From assembly GCA_016183805.1 (NCBI GenBank), contig JACPDX010000081.1, positions 1 through 60,006 of the forward strand: DNA of 60,006 nt, read 5' to 3'. The notes beneath the pieces were generated by a model, which searched no databases, was not told the DNA's origin, and saw only the letters and a program-made list of their open reading frames with translations. Each line of letters opens with the position of its first letter. The stretch's first letter is position 1. Made by a program: the position numbers and the translations under genes. The DNA comes from Bacteroidota bacterium. GTDB taxonomy: Bacteria; Bacteroidota; Bacteroidia; Flavobacteriales_E; Vicingaceae. Shown here piece by piece: positions 27,437 to 54,613 of this stretch.

Positions 27437-28732
27437 ATGAAAAAATTATCTATTGCTTTAGGAACTGTTTTTGTGTTAATTTTTAATTTCACATTTGCTC
27501 AAACACTCGAAAAATGTGGAACGATGCACAATCACAGAAAATTGCTTGAAAACAATCCAAGTTTATCGTCGAGTAGATTACAAGTTGAGCAAATTGCAGA
27601 AGATTGGTTAGCCAATCATCCAAACTATAAAAAAACGGTGGCAACTATACCTGTTGTTTTTCACGTAGTTTATAACCCTTCTATACCTGCTCAAAATGTG
27701 CCTGATTCAATTATTTATTCGCAATTACAAGTGATAAATGATGATTATAGAAGAACAAATGCTGATGCAATAAATACTCGTCCGGAGTTTGATTCGTTGG
27801 CTACCGATTTAGAAATAGAATTTTGTTTAGCAAACGTTGACCCAAATGGTAATTTTACTACCGGAATTAACAGAGTTACCACCACCGCCAATGATTTTTC
27901 TTTTTCACCATTCGACAATAAAGTAAAAAGTGATACAACAGGTGGTGTTAATCCTTGGCCGGCATCTGATTATTTGAATATTTGGGTGTGCGATATGTAT
28001 TATAATGGTTCGCCATTGGTTTTAGGTTATGCTCAATTTCCGGGAGAAGATCCTGCCACCGATGGTGTTGTTTTAACTTATCAACATACGGGTTACCGAC
28101 CATGGGATGCTGCTGCCAATCCTGCTAATTTAGGAAGAACCGCTAGTCATGAGGTTGGACATTATTTTGGTTTACGACACATTTGGGGTGATGGTGATTG
28201 CGATTCGACCGATTATGTTACAGATACTCCTAATGCTGCGGCTGCATCACAACAAATTTGTACATTAACTAACAATACCTGTGATGATGCTGTTGCCGAA
28301 CCATACTGGAATGGATATGACCCACCTGATATGTTAGAAAACTATATGGATTACTCTACAGATGCTTGTATGAACATGTTTACCAAAGGGCAAAAAGATA
28401 GGATGTGGTCGTTTTTAAATACTGACAGAGTTTCGTTATTATCTTCAAACAAATGTAGTGGCACATCAATTGGGGAGTTTTTACCATCTTCATCATTAAT
28501 CATGTATCCAAACCCTGCATCTAATAGTGTAACATTGGAATGGCCTGGAGAATTTAAATTTGAACGTTTAGAAGTGGTTGATTTGGTTGGAAAAGTTATT
28601 GTTTCAAAAAATATATCTTTTGTTTATGCAAAGTACGTTGTAAATACTTCCGATTTGAAAGATGGAATTTATTTTATCCGATTGGTTGACAGAAAAAAAT
28701 CGACAACAAAAAAGATAATTATTTCAAAATAA
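27437..28732 (+). CDS. M43 (pappalysin-like) zinc metalloprotease with T9SS type A sorting domain
   Basis: This 431-residue secreted protease starts with a signal peptide (KKLSIALGTVFVLIFNFTFAQ). The zinc-binding motif HEVGHYFGLRH (238-248) is the extended HExxHxxGxxH of metzincins, followed by the Met-turn region ENYMDYSTDACMNMFTKGQ. Paired cysteines around the active site fit the M43B group. The last 75 residues (LIMYPNPASNSVTLEW to DGIYFIRLVDRKKSTTKKIIISK) are a T9SS type A sorting tail. It is a single-gene unit ended by a strong terminator. Confidence 0.95.
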   Translation: MKKLSIALGTVFVLIFNFTFAQTLEKCGTMHNHRKLLENNPSLSSSRLQVEQIAEDWLANHPNYKKTVATIPVVFHVVYNPSIPAQNVPDSIIYSQLQVINDDYRRTNADAINTRPEFDSLATDLEIEFCLANVDPNGNFTTGINRVTTTANDFSFSPFDNKVKSDTTGGVNPWPASDYLNIWVCDMYYNGSPLVLGYAQFPGEDPATDGVVLTYQHTGYRPWDAAANPANLGRTASHEVGHYFGLRHIWGDGDCDSTDYVTDTPNAAAASQQICTLTNNTCDDAVAEPYWNGYDPPDMLENYMDYSTDACMNMFTKGQKDRMWSFLNTDRVSLLSSNKCSGTSIGEFLPSSSLIMYPNPASNSVTLEWPGEFKFERLEVVDLVGKVIVSKNISFVYAKYVVNTSDLKDGIYFIRLVDRKKSTTKKIIISK

Positions 28733-49760: not shown

Positions 49761-52364
49761 ATGAATTTTAATAACTATACCATTAAATCGCAAGAAGCAA
49801 TTCAACAAGCACAACAAATTGCATTGTCTTCAACTCATCAAAGTATTGAAACCGGGCATATTCTAAAAGGTATTTTGGAAGTGGACGAAAATGTAACTCC
49901 TTTTATTCTAAAAAAATTAGGAGTAAACATCAATATCTTCAAACAAGCTTTAGATAAGATTGTTGAAAGCTACCCAAAAGTTTCGGGTGGTAACCAATAT
50001 CTTTCTCAAAACGCCAACAATGCTTTAAACAAAGCTAACTCCTATTTAAAAGAATTTGGTGATGAATATGTAACCATAGAACATTTAATTTTAGGATTAT
50101 TAGCGGGTAATGATACTATTGCTCAATTGTTAAAAGATAATGGGGTTAAAGAAAAAGAGTTAAAAGCAGCTATTCAAGAATTAAGAAAAGGGGAAAAAGT
50201 TACTTCTCAAAGCCAAGAAGAACAATACAATTCGTTAAAAAAATACGCTAAAAATCTCAACGAATTAGCTAAACAAAACAAGCTCGACCCAGTTATTGGT
50301 CGTGATGAAGAAATTCGTCGAGTTCTACAAATATTATCTCGTAGAACCAAAAACAATCCCATTTTAATTGGTGAACCTGGTGTCGGTAAAACAGCCATTG
50401 CCGAAGGCTTGGCACACCGTATTATTCAAGGCGACGTACCCGAGAACTTAAAAGACAAACAAATTTTCTCGTTAGACATGGGAGCTTTAATTGCCGGAGC
50501 AAAATACAAAGGCGAATTTGAAGAACGTTTAAAATCGGTAGTAAAAGAAGTGATTAGTGCCGAAGGAAATATTGTATTGTTTATTGATGAAATTCATACG
50601 CTTGTTGGTGCTGGTGGTGGAGAAGGTGCTATGGATGCCGCCAACATTTTAAAACCTGCTTTGGCAAGAGGTGAACTAAAAGCCATTGGAGCAACTACTT
50701 TAAACGAATATCAAAAATATTTTGAAAAAGACAAAGCTTTAGAACGTCGTTTTCAAAAAGTAATGGTAGATGAACCTTCTACCGAAGATGCGATTTCAAT
50801 TTTGAGAGGTATTAAAGAAAAGTACGAATCGCACCACAAAGTGCAAATTAAAGATTCTGCAATTATTGCAGCCGTAGAACTTTCGCAACGTTATATAACC
50901 GACCGTTTTTTACCCGACAAAGCCATTGACTTAATTGATGAGGCAGCTTCAAAATTAAGAATGGAAATTAATTCAAAGCCTGAAGTTTTAGACGAAATTG
51001 AACGTAAAATAATGCAACTCGAAATTGAACGGGAAGCCATAAAACGTGAAAAAGACGACAAAAAACTCGACCTCATCAAAAATGAACTCGCTAATTTAAA
51101 TGAAGAAAAAAACAATTTAACCGCCAAATGGCAAGCCGAAAAAGATGTGGTAGATGGCATACAAAAAACCAAAGATTTAATTGAATCGCTTAAATACGAA
51201 GCCGATCAAGCCGAACGAAACAGCGACTTTGGTAAGGTAGCTGAAATCCGTTACGGAAAAATTAAAGAAGCTGAGGACAAATTGACCAGCTTCAAAACCC
51301 AATTGACCGAACTTCAGTCAAACTCCAAAATGATTAAGGAAGAAGTTACTCCCGAAGAAATTGCCGAAGTAGTTTCGAAATGGACAGGAATTCCGGTAAC
51401 CAAAATGTTGGAAAGCGAACGCATGAAATTGTTGAAATTGGAAGACGAATTGCATAAAAGAGTTGTTGGTCAGGAAGAAGCAATAACCGCTGTTGCTGAT
51501 GCAATTCGACGAAGTCGTGCTGGTTTGCAAGACGAAAAACGCCCCATCGGTTCATTCATCTTTTTAGGAACAACAGGTGTTGGTAAAACTGAACTCGCCA
51601 AAGCGTTGAGCGAATACTTGTTTAATGATGATAATGCCATGACCAGAATTGACATGAGTGAATATCAGGAAAAACATTCGGTTTCCCGTTTAATTGGTGC
51701 TCCTCCTGGATATGTTGGTTATGATGAAGGAGGACAATTAACTGAGGCTGTTCGTAGAAAACCTTATTCTGTGGTTTTACTTGATGAAATAGAAAAAGCT
51801 CACCCTGATGTGTTTAACATTTTGTTACAAGTTTTGGATGATGGAAGGCTGACCGACAACAAAGGTAGAATGGTGAATTTTAAAAACACTATTATTATTA
51901 TGACCTCCAATATTGGCTCTCAATTGATTCAAGAAAATTTTGAAACGTTAGGCAAAAAAAATAGAGAAAGCGTGATTGAAAAAACCAAAGTAGAATTGTT
52001 TGGTTTATTAAAACAAACCATCCGCCCTGAGTTTTTAAATAGAATTGACGAAACCATTATGTTTGTACCTTTAACCGAACACGATATTATTGAAATTGTA
52101 AGATTGCAACTGAAAGGCTTGGCAAAATTGTTACAAAAAAATAACATTCATCTTGATTTTACTGATGAAGCAGTTGAACACATTTCAAAAATGGGTTACG
52201 ACCCACAATTTGGTGCTCGACCTGTAAAACGTGTGTTGCAAAAAAATGTATTGAACGAGTTGTCAAAACAATTGTTGGAAGGAAAAGTAAAACCTGACTC
52301 AGCAATAATTTTAGACCAATTTGAAGGGCAGTTTGTGTTTAGGAATAAAAAAATTAGTTACTAA
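49761..52364 (+). CDS. clpB: ATP-dependent disaggregase ClpB
   Basis: ClpB is a hexameric AAA+ chaperone that pulls proteins out of aggregates with DnaK. The 867-residue protein has the N-terminal Clp repeat domain (about 1-145), the first AAA+ module with Walker A GEPGVGKT (204-211) and Walker B LFIDEIHTLVGAGG, the middle coiled-coil domain (about 400-530) and the second module with GTTGVGKT (603-610) and LLDEIEKAHPDVFNILLQVLDDGRLTD. It has no IGF loop for ClpP binding that I can see, as expected for ClpB. I see no CIRCE element in the upstream gap; the promoter is not clear. Confidence 0.97.
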   Translation: MNFNNYTIKSQEAIQQAQQIALSSTHQSIETGHILKGILEVDENVTPFILKKLGVNINIFKQALDKIVESYPKVSGGNQYLSQNANNALNKANSYLKEFGDEYVTIEHLILGLLAGNDTIAQLLKDNGVKEKELKAAIQELRKGEKVTSQSQEEQYNSLKKYAKNLNELAKQNKLDPVIGRDEEIRRVLQILSRRTKNNPILIGEPGVGKTAIAEGLAHRIIQGDVPENLKDKQIFSLDMGALIAGAKYKGEFEERLKSVVKEVISAEGNIVLFIDEIHTLVGAGGGEGAMDAANILKPALARGELKAIGATTLNEYQKYFEKDKALERRFQKVMVDEPSTEDAISILRGIKEKYESHHKVQIKDSAIIAAVELSQRYITDRFLPDKAIDLIDEAASKLRMEINSKPEVLDEIERKIMQLEIEREAIKREKDDKKLDLIKNELANLNEEKNNLTAKWQAEKDVVDGIQKTKDLIESLKYEADQAERNSDFGKVAEIRYGKIKEAEDKLTSFKTQLTELQSNSKMIKEEVTPEEIAEVVSKWTGIPVTKMLESERMKLLKLEDELHKRVVGQEEAITAVADAIRRSRAGLQDEKRPIGSFIFLGTTGVGKTELAKALSEYLFNDDNAMTRIDMSEYQEKHSVSRLIGAPPGYVGYDEGGQLTEAVRRKPYSVVLLDEIEKAHPDVFNILLQVLDDGRLTDNKGRMVNFKNTIIIMTSNIGSQLIQENFETLGKKNRESVIEKTKVELFGLLKQTIRPEFLNRIDETIMFVPLTEHDIIEIVRLQLKGLAKLLQKNNIHLDFTDEAVEHISKMGYDPQFGARPVKRVLQKNVLNELSKQLLEGKVKPDSAIILDQFEGQFVFRNKKISY

Positions 52365-52409: not shown

Positions 52410-52778
52410 CTACTTTAAGGTGTTGATAGGGCAGTCATAACAAGCTAAATCGTGATGTTCATTTGAATTTTTAATTGATTGATTACCGTATATGTTACAG
52501 TGATTATTCATGTTTACGAATTGCTCTTGATAGTGATTACATTTCTGTTTTACACCATAAGTTTGAACAGCCTTTTTTTGAATAGGATTTAATGGCTCAA
52601 TTTTTCTGAACAACTTTACTAATTTTTCATTTTGCAGGAGTAATTTTTCGGTAAGATGTTGTATTTCAACACCATTTAAATCCTCATGTTTTAATTTATC
52701 AGACATGTCAGAACGAATAATAAATGCTATTAATTCATCTATTTCTTCTTTGTTTAACCAAAAAATAAATGGTGTCAT
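52410..52778 (-). CDS. Four-cysteine protein of unknown function, copy A
   Basis: The 122-residue product has an acidic helical N-terminal half (MTPFIFWLNKEEIDELIAFI, TEKLLLQNEKLVKLFRKIEPLNPIQKKA) and a C-terminal half with four cysteines: Cys80 (KQKCNHYQEQF), Cys94 (NHCNIYG), Cys113 and Cys116 (LACYDCP), plus several histidines. The spacing C-x13-C-x18-C-x2-C suggests zinc or iron-sulfur binding. It is a tandem paralogue of the next gene and I do not recognise the family. No signal peptide, so it should be cytoplasmic. Confidence 0.8.
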   Translation of the reverse strand: MTPFIFWLNKEEIDELIAFIIRSDMSDKLKHEDLNGVEIQHLTEKLLLQNEKLVKLFRKIEPLNPIQKKAVQTYGVKQKCNHYQEQFVNMNNHCNIYGNQSIKNSNEHHDLACYDCPINTLK

Positions 52779-52960
52779 AAATAAAATGAGTTAATTTAAA
52801 AAATAAAAAAAATTGAATTTAGAATAACCTTATCTGATAAAGATACATTTAAGATACTTTCACTCGACACAATGTACTGTTTTTCTTTTAAACGGTCGTT
52901 TTTGAGGTAGTTTTGTGCAAAAAAGAAGTTTATAAACTCAAATAGGATTGGTATTATTTA

Positions 52961-53332
52961 CTATTCTAATACTATTCTAACCGGACAATCGGTACATGCC
53001 AAATTATTATGTTCATTTGAGTTTTTAATAGATGGATGACCAAAAATATTACAATGTGCCATCATTTCTTCAAACTGCTCTTGATAATGATTACATTTCT
53101 GTTTTACGCCATAGGTTTGTGCAGCCTTTTTTTGAATAGGATTTAATGGCTCGATTTTTCTGAACAATTGTATTAACTTAGCATTCTGAACCAATAATTT
53201 TTCGGTTAATTCTTTTAACTCACCTGAGTCAATCACTTCGTTTGTTAGTTTATCAGATGAATCGGCACGAATTATATGAGTAATTAACTCATCAATTTCT
53301 TCTTTTTTTAGCCAAATTACAAAAGGAGTCAT
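52961..53332 (-). CDS. Four-cysteine protein of unknown function, copy B
   Basis: The 123-residue product aligns without gaps to copy A over almost its full length. Residues 56-87 are nearly identical (LFRKIEPLNPIQKKA, QTYGVKQKCNHYQEQF), and the four cysteines (80, 94, 113, 116) are at the same positions. The two genes lie in the same direction with a 182-base gap of AT-rich DNA that holds no gene, so each may have its own promoter. Both are divergent from the XRE regulator at 53488, which could control copy B. Function unknown. Confidence 0.8.
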   Translation of the reverse strand: MTPFVIWLKKEEIDELITHIIRADSSDKLTNEVIDSGELKELTEKLLVQNAKLIQLFRKIEPLNPIQKKAAQTYGVKQKCNHYQEQFEEMMAHCNIFGHPSIKNSNEHNNLACTDCPVRIVLE

Positions 53333-53437
53333 GATTTTATAATTAAATTAGTACCAAAATATTGTACAAGATATATGAATTCTACGAATAATTGTTTCAT
53401 TTTTTGCAATTTTTTTTCACTAAATTATGTGTTTTGT

Positions 53438-53471
53438 GTATTAATACTCAATAGTATTAAGTATTAATACT
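53438..53471. promoter_or_regulatory. Palindromic operator-like sites before the XRE regulator
   Basis: GTATTAATAC occurs at 53438-53447 and again at 53461-53470; the second is inside the perfect palindrome AGTATTAATACT (53460-53471). Between them TTAATACT-CAAT-AGTATTAA (53441-53460) is another perfect palindrome. The block ends 16 bases before the regulator's ATG and lies between two divergent genes, which suits autoregulation by the regulator. Confidence 0.6.
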
Positions 53472-53487
53472 TAAATATTAAAAAATA

Positions 53488-53850
53488 ATGGATAATAAAG
53501 TTTTACTTAAAAAAATTAAAAACACTCGTTTGGTTAAAGAACTAAGCCAAGAAGATATGGCTAAGAGGTTACACATCTCTATACCAACTTATTCGAGATT
53601 TGAAAGAGGTGTAACCAAAACAAATGTTAATTTACTTAAAAGTGTATCAAAAATTCTAGAACTAGATTTTTTTAATTCTTTAGAAAACGATAGTTTTAAT
53701 ATGATAAATGAAGATTCTACAGCTTATGAAACCAAAGCGGAAATCATTCAAAAACAATTGAAAACATTGATCAAATTATTTGAGAAACAACAAGAGATAA
53801 ATACCTTAATATTATCGAAATTGAAAGATTTAAAAGAAGGTAAGACATAA
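53488..53850 (+). CDS. XRE-family helix-turn-helix regulator with coiled-coil tail
   Basis: The 120-residue protein has an N-terminal HTH of the XRE/Cro type (IKNTRLVKELSQEDMAKRLHISIPTYSRFERGVTKTNVNLLKSVSKILEL, about 10-60) and a C-terminal coiled coil (KAEIIQKQLKTLIKLFEKQQEINTLILSKLKDL) likely to mediate dimerisation. It probably binds the palindromes just upstream and may also control the divergent four-cysteine gene. No phage or toxin gene is adjacent. It is convergent with the MBL gene, with one base between stops. Confidence 0.88.
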   Translation: MDNKVLLKKIKNTRLVKELSQEDMAKRLHISIPTYSRFERGVTKTNVNLLKSVSKILELDFFNSLENDSFNMINEDSTAYETKAEIIQKQLKTLIKLFEKQQEINTLILSKLKDLKEGKT

Positions 53851-53851
53851 A

Positions 53852-54613
53852 TTAAACCATTATTTCTAAACCGTCATAAGCCAACTCAATAAAATCAGGT
53901 AATTCTTTTTGAACAACATCGTGTTTTCCCATTAAATGGCTGATGTGGGTTAAATAAGCCTTTTTAGGCTTTAGTTTAATTAAAATTTCGATGGCTTCGG
54001 CTAGATTAAAATGCGAAATATGTGATTCTTTTCTTAATGCGTTGATTACGATAACCTCCGAACCTTTAATTTTTTCTAACTCCTTCTCCTCTATTTTATT
54101 TGCATCGGTAATGTAGGTGAAATTTCCTATTCGATAAGCCTTAACTGGCATTTTATAATGTAACACATTGATGGGTAAAAAAGGAATTCCTGCAACATTA
54201 AAAACCTCATCAGTTACGGTGTGTAATTTTAATTCAGGCACTCCTGGATATTTGAATTCATCAAAAGCATAATAAAACTCTCGTTTTAAGGCATTTTGCA
54301 ATGAAATGGTTCCATAAATATCCATAGCCATTTCTTGCTTAAAATTATAGGCACGAACATCGTCTAATCCTGCAATGTGGTCTTTGTGCTCGTGTGTAAA
54401 AACAACAGCATCTAACTGTTGTACATTTGCTCGAAGCATTTGTTGCCTAAAATCTGGTCCCGAATCTATAACAATAGTTTTTCCTAAGTGTTCAATTAAA
54501 ACGGAAACTCGTAATCGTTTATCTTTTTCATTTTCTGATAAACACACCTCACAATTGCAAGCAATAACGGGTATTCCTTGCGATGTTCCTGTGCCTAAAA
54601 ATGTTATTTTCAT
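53852..54613 (-). CDS. Metallo-beta-lactamase fold hydrolase (PhnP-like)
   Basis: The 253-residue protein begins KITFLGTGTSQGIPVIACNCEVC, typical of the PhnP/RNase Z-like branch. The metal-binding motif is THEHKDHIAGLDDVR (His74, His76, Asp78, His79), followed by later ligands in TYITDANKIEEKE and KKAYLTHISHLMG. Members hydrolyse phosphodiesters such as cyclic phosphates; the exact substrate here is unknown. The start overlaps the desulfurase stop by one base, so the two are coupled. Confidence 0.9.
   Translation of the reverse strand: MKITFLGTGTSQGIPVIACNCEVCLSENEKDKRLRVSVLIEHLGKTIVIDSGPDFRQQMLRANVQQLDAVVFTHEHKDHIAGLDDVRAYNFKQEMAMDIYGTISLQNALKREFYYAFDEFKYPGVPELKLHTVTDEVFNVAGIPFLPINVLHYKMPVKAYRIGNFTYITDANKIEEKELEKIKGSEVIVINALRKESHISHFNLAEAIEILIKLKPKKAYLTHISHLMGKHDVVQKELPDFIELAYDGLEIMV

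Follow-up and report, generated by a model that had tools for sequence, protein, structure and literature searches.

A divergent XRE-type regulator and an apparently narrow family of small proteins with an optional cysteine tail: a possible repressor-partner switch

The stretch of DNA analysed here (the window, 60,006 nucleotides) carries two tandem genes, both under purifying selection, that belong to a family of small proteins referred to as MTPF. Genes of this family co-occur with a gene for an XRE-type regulator, from which they diverge across an intergenic region with a conserved inverted repeat, and the cysteines that first drew attention to the pair lie in a tail that more than half of the relatives lack. 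Of several possible explanations, we favour, at a rough probability of 0.4, a switch in which the XRE protein is a repressor and the MTPF protein a small partner acting back on it, in a logic like that of SinR/SinI, with an optional metal- or redox-responsive tail. The features are as follows; the names of the neighbouring genes are readings of their sequences and not search results.

49761-52364, plus strand: ClpB (name read from the sequence)
52410-52778, minus strand: copy B, tandem paralogue of copy A, 122 aa (open reading frame, 71% identity, cysteine positions)
52961-53332, minus strand: copy A, MTPF family gene, 123 aa (open reading frame, relatives, dN/dS, cysteine positions)
53333-53487: intergenic region shared by copy A and the XRE gene, 155 bp, with putative operators
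53395-53409: inverted repeat TTTCATTTTTTGCAA, TTTCA-N5-TGCAA (pattern TTnCA-N5-TGnAA)
53395-53419, minus strand: TGAAA-N5-TTGCA-N5-TGAAA, the repeat plus the next half site
53435-53450: imperfect second copy of the AT palindrome, read from the sequence
53458-53473: AT-rich palindrome TAAGTATTAATACTTA, 16 bp (pattern TAnGTAwwwwTACnTA)
53488-53850, plus strand: divergent XRE-type regulator, 120 aa (HTH domain and long C-terminal helix; HTH_3 E 3.7e-9)
53852-54613, minus strand: metallo-beta-lactamase-fold hydrolase, MBL (name read from the sequence)

The tandem genes and the architecture of their family

The initial annotation had described two paralogues that keep the spacing C-x13-C-x18-C-x2-C and had taken this as a sign of constraint. 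Both open reading frames are present, and cysteines 80, 94, 113 and 116 are in register in copies A and B with precisely that spacing. The two proteins are 71% identical, and as dN between their genes is 0.18 while dS is saturated at 2.2 (Nei-Gojobori), they are real coding genes under purifying selection, so that the suspected constraint is borne out. Their dN to the nearest relative, in genome G034, is 0.24-0.26.

Copy A consists of the N-domain of the MTPF family and a four-cysteine tail. In an alignment of 16 rows, the part common to the relatives is the N-terminal domain of about 65 residues, which opens with MTPF..WL, continues with a helix and then with L..QN..L…K.I, and which is kept least well in the two copies of genome G060. 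The remark that the N- and C-termini of the pair differ is correct for copies A and B; across the relatives it fails, since there the first ~65 residues make up the conserved core.

Judged from this alignment, the cysteines represent an optional tail and not the core of the family. The tail (C-x11/12-HC-x16-19-C-x2-C, with one invariant His) is present in 7 of 15 members. Homologues without the cysteines, the result that the annotation itself had named as speaking against its proposal, account for the other 8 and occur in 7 of the 13 genomes with the family (all six genomes of genus label g4, and G060 with both of its copies), so that four cysteines can no longer be regarded as defining the family. 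Nor is the exact spacing a family constraint, as C-x12/13-C and C-x16/18/19-C both occur among the relatives, followed by the C-x2-C pair. What survives is the conservation of the cysteines where a tail exists: C, H, C, L, C and C are invariant in all seven rows, one His thus included. The tail would probably hold zinc or react with oxidants.

Tailed members are known from g1, g11 and g13, and the tree places the two G060 copies, which have no tail, with the tailed member of G062 (98/93, on long branches that were flagged by the program). On these grounds the simplest reading would be that the tail has been lost at least twice. No remnant of a tail was found downstream of the four tail-less genes that were checked (G019, G032, G035 and the first G060 copy).

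Attempts to name the family agree with its earlier description as unknown. Neither window copy matched Pfam, NCBIfam, PHROGs or PADLOC above chance; for known cysteine-rich domains in particular, Pfam and PADLOC gave no match to the window copies, and NCBIfam and PHROGs chance-level ones alone. The 16 members produced scattered Pfam matches at E 0.009 or worse, the best of zinc type being zf-RING_15 (E 0.058, one member) and Zn_ribbon_TFIIB (E 0.11, two members), and none of the 8 members examined singly had a Pfam match near its cut-off. In sequence searches of the PDB, the best values were E 0.16 for the whole family and E 0.095 for the tail (profile search). The AlphaFold model of the MTPF protein is weak (pLDDT 68.6, pTM 0.35), and a fold search with it retrieved no solved fold (best E 3.9), which is what a model of this quality would lead one to expect.

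Neither of two candidate relatives was accepted. For the cysteine tail as a free-standing domain elsewhere, there are weak matches outside the order in 14 of 395 genomes (E 0.002-0.05); several contain stops, and none of the four loci that were read (L120, L121, L123 and L130) is convincing. The other candidate is an SPO1-type phage protein, where no search passes its cut-off and profile comparison gives a probability of 8.6%. The likeness consists of copy A against phrog_25217 (E 0.018, PHROGs), of tblastn matches at E 0.9-1 in 8 Bacillus phage records, and of Pfam SPO1_gp41 for the G062 member (E 0.0092, 16.6 bits against a cut-off of 27). In Bacillus phage SPO1L4 (L133, 1501-1668), the last 55 residues of a 190-aa protein weakly resemble residues 13-77 of copy A. 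We regard the link to this phage protein as an unproven lead.

Linkage to the XRE gene, distribution and chromosomal sites

The divergent gene beside the pair, already noted as an XRE regulator, encodes an XRE/Cro-C1-type HTH protein (PF01381, 36.9 bits against a curated cut-off of 23). Its structural model is good in the HTH domain and in the long C-terminal helix (residues 83-117), with pLDDT 93-95 at residues 91-110, and this helix is conserved among the relatives.

The MTPF family was found in 13 of the 46 genomes of the order, the window's own genome counted. By genus label these are 2 of 4 genomes in g1, 6 of 6 in g4, 2 of 2 in g11 and 3 of 14 in g13, where several genomes are 71-90% complete and some absences may be gaps; the other 12 genera of the order gave none. 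A search of 395 genomes of the class returned strong matches in 5, each of them one of the 13 and from the host's own family, and no convincing member outside that family. Weak whole-family matches in two further genomes of this set (E 0.001-0.004) both lie inside long frames and were discounted, and matches at E 0.01-0.06 were left out of the counts. In a GTDB-based collection, the family search yielded two loci, those of G034 and G001, and so no added members, while a single-protein query yielded none. There was no confirmed relative among 299 pattern matches in viral contigs, none in plasmids, and none in phages, where 8 places reached E 0.9-1. As far as it has been searched for by sequence, the family thus appears narrow and limited to one order.

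XRE relatives scoring 69.7-175.6 bits occur in exactly the 13 MTPF genomes of the 46, and no other XRE match in these 46 genomes exceeds 60.5 bits. As 12 of the 13 XRE proteins were part of the search profile, their high scores follow by construction, and the informative part of this search is that the other 33 genomes have no comparable XRE protein. The linkage itself was not built in: the loci were fetched by MTPF, and those of G060 and G062 were first found with the MTPF profile. The XRE gene is adjacent and divergent to the MTPF gene in 12 of the 13 genomes; in the thirteenth (G025) both genes lie at contig ends. By eye, none of 16 lower-scoring XRE loci of the order (L058-L074 without L065; frames of at least 45 aa considered, overlapping ones dropped) has an MTPF-like neighbour.

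Several of these loci have peculiarities of their own. The XRE frame of G001 (L023, 252-524) follows the family only up to about residue 64, beyond which it reads like a shifted frame; it lies close to a contig end, and its MTPF partner is also split. Two other XRE genes are divergent to short peptide genes, three in one case (L066, 435-1258, G010) and one in the other (L069, 1039-1266, G020); the peptides have 75-78 aa and a GG motif some 30 residues in, like precursors of bacteriocin type.

The pair occupies several chromosomal sites. It lies between ClpB and MBL in the window (G000), G034 and G062, and between purB and MBL in five of the g4 genomes. In g11 its neighbour is a thymidine-kinase-like gene, and G001 and G060 have it at yet other places; the MTPF piece of G001 is next to a metalloprotease gene that has its look-alike at 27437-28732 of the window. 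MBL is found in 43 of the 46 genomes, and in the 19 of 30 MBL loci that were read there is one, in G024, where MBL and ClpB stand end to end with nothing between them. G024 has the same genus label as G034 and G062, such that the filled and the unfilled state of this site both occur within g13.

In G034, both genes of the pair are by identity closer to a different genus than to their own, unlike MBL. Compared with G000 (g1) and with G062 (g13), respectively, the proteins of G034 (g13) are 61% and 36% identical for MTPF, 66% and 50% for XRE, and 75% and 78% for MBL. The MTPF tree groups G000 with G034 at 94/95, with an open fork, and the XRE tree does not resolve the position of these two. Given the several sites, the slot that may be filled or empty and the cross-genus nearness shared by both genes, the MTPF-XRE pair seems, on sequence comparison, to behave as one accessory unit.

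Two further observations concern these sites. Between the two tail-less MTPF copies of G060 (L037, 1749-2331) lies a degraded piece that by eye resembles the start of MBL; the intact MBL gene of G060 is on a different contig (L097), and perhaps the module was duplicated or relocated together with part of an old neighbour. In G028 (L091, 1117-1491) the ClpB/MBL slot is filled by an unrelated frame of 124 aa, and small genes may come and go there.

The shared intergenic region

Palindromic, operator-like sites had been suspected beside the pair. The AT-rich palindrome TAAGTATTAATACTTA is real, and the inverted repeat TTTCATTTTTTGCAA, which the annotation does not name, is the better conserved of the two. 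Of 12 intergenic regions, 10 match its pattern TTnCA-N5-TGnAA exactly and 2 (L013, L014) with one mismatch, and the distance from the end of an exact site to the MTPF start is 41-79 bp. Shuffled regions would contain ~0.00-0.02 exact sites each, a figure that overstates the evidence since the very regions that were counted had supplied the patterns, which were picked out by eye, and the 12 regions represent few clades. Outside this set are the 161 bp before the G025 gene, a stretch cut by the contig end, and the regions before copy B and before the second G060 copy; the latter two lack an exact site, and before copy B there is no TTnCA site.

The repeat is commonly extended. A second copy with at most one mismatch lies 20 bp away in 6 of 12 regions (L008, L009, L010, L014, L035 and L037), and the longer pattern TGAAA-N5-TTRCA-N5-TGAAA is exact in 8 of 12, on the opposite strand in G001 (L023). 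The host's own genome of 3.47 Mb has one exact place for the longer pattern, the site at 53395-53419. Allowing one mismatch adds 6 places, while a reversed control gives 5, so that only the exact site stands out. The shorter pattern is not rare, with 4 exact occurrences in the 60-kb window. In L008, L009 and L010, a fourth half site (TTGCG, TTACA, TTGCA) follows TGAAA/TTACA/TGAAA at an exact 10-bp step.

The AT palindrome was considered as a universal operator and demoted, being exact in just 6 of 12 regions (the window, L006, L008, L009, L011 and L015), with one mismatch in 2 (L010, L014) and two to four in 4 (L013, L035, L037, L023). By genome, it is exact in the window, G034, G019, G029, G035 and G032, and weak or absent in G013, G062, G060 and G001. 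At up to one mismatch, 0.56 matches are expected by chance per window, and TAAGTATTAATACTTA in the window alone is therefore not remarkable. The own genome has 18 places with up to two mismatches, against 8 for a reversed control.

A possible switch and the alternatives to it

In the switch that we favour, the XRE protein would repress the divergent promoters of its own gene and of the MTPF gene or genes. It would do so by binding TTnCA-N5-TGnAA and, in part of the lineages, also the AT palindrome near its own start. The N-terminal helical domain of MTPF would be the constant output, and its binding to the long helix at the C-terminus of XRE would tune or relieve repression. In some lineages, including that of the window, the Cys/His tail would make the partner sensitive to metal or redox state, and others would use a partner without it. 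The genes and the selection on them, their co-occurrence and divergent arrangement, the conserved repeat between them and the optional tail are observed, whereas repression, the identity of the protein that binds the repeat, contact between MTPF and XRE, and metal binding are what we infer. Two points lower confidence in this reading: the search profile already contained 12 of the 13 XRE proteins, and the trees poorly resolve the cross-genus grouping.

SinR/SinI of Bacillus subtilis appears closest in logic. In that system (PMC3163267), an XRE repressor is paired with a small antagonist, and the SinI surface for SinR binding is conserved between both proteins. The present module resembles it in the short XRE repressor whose C-terminal region is helical, in the small, largely helical partner candidate, in the inverted-repeat DNA site and in the adjacency of the two genes (12 of 13 genomes; G025 is cut by contig ends). 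It differs in that the MTPF gene is divergently oriented, that its product may carry a cysteine tail and that the partnership is predicted. A common helical interaction segment is also missing by profile comparison: hhalign found no segment shared by MTPF and XRE (probability 0.2 on one column). As this defining helix was not found, we would compare the module with SinR/SinI and do not file it as a member. That MTPF is a small helical antirepressor unrelated in sequence to XRE, with a detachable Cys/His sensor such that sensing and non-sensing forms of the switch exist, we consider rather doubtful.

In a Foldseek search with the XRE model, the phage Phi106 repressor with AimX (PDB 9sf2) came first (E 0.036) and SinR with SinI fifth (E 0.056). 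All 475 matches have E-values above 0.001, and in the ranking SinR is accompanied by controller proteins, Cro and EDF1; with E-values this weak and ordinary XRE folds alongside, the list says little beyond "XRE fold". The Phi106 repressor with AimX is likewise an XRE repressor with a partner, yet the match has a TM of 0.44 over 75 columns at 9.8 A rmsd, and it belongs to a phage system, while the phage search returned no confirmed MTPF relative. C.Esp1396I and other restriction-modification controller proteins share the HTH fold by the same matches. Controller proteins of this kind have tandem inverted-repeat operators, a further likeness to the module; the XRE protein differs from C.Esp1396I in its longer C-terminal helix and its linked MTPF gene, and no restriction-modification gene is among the neighbours read.

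A plain regulator-effector pair ranks close behind the repressor-partner switch. The XRE protein would then control MTPF, which would act elsewhere, for example in metal handling or stress, with no contact to its regulator. In favour of this alternative, divergent regulators with a single target are common. The invariance of Cys and His in the seven tailed rows would suit an effector as well, and so would the duplication of the MTPF gene in the window, with both copies under selection, and in G060. Against this, 8 of 15 members have no tail while the N-domain, the XRE gene and the intergenic repeat stay together, and not one of the 46 genomes has the MTPF family without the XRE relative. We regard the effector as a tenable, if tentative, alternative.

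It is improbable that the module is a domesticated remnant of an immunity switch from a phage or mobile element. The XRE protein does resemble phage repressors, by profile (phrog_3, E 1.2e-9) and by fold, and one site is both filled and unfilled within g13, but phages, plasmids and viral contigs hold no confirmed relative of MTPF, and the sub-threshold likeness of its N-domain to the end of an SPO1-type phage protein has the low probability given above. Nor do we give much credence to a pair of toxin (MTPF) and antitoxin (XRE), which patchy presence, the joint occurrence of both genes at different sites and sub-threshold matches of the XRE protein to MqsA, HipB and PezA antitoxin models might suggest, as the genes are divergent and not co-directional, MTPF matches toxin families at chance level only (for example GhoS, E 0.026, in 1 of 16 members), and two tandem toxin copies per antitoxin would be odd.

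Returning to the repressor-partner switch, the novelty is modest and lies in a narrow family that none of the libraries searched could name, in its optional, sensor-like tail and in its well-defined promoter. The general reach is modest too, the family being narrow as far as searched. Within it, two genes, a common promoter of 155 bp, a predicted operator and a natural set of tailed and tail-less variants make up a small test case that bears on how a repressor may gain a partner and how a sensory tail may come and go.
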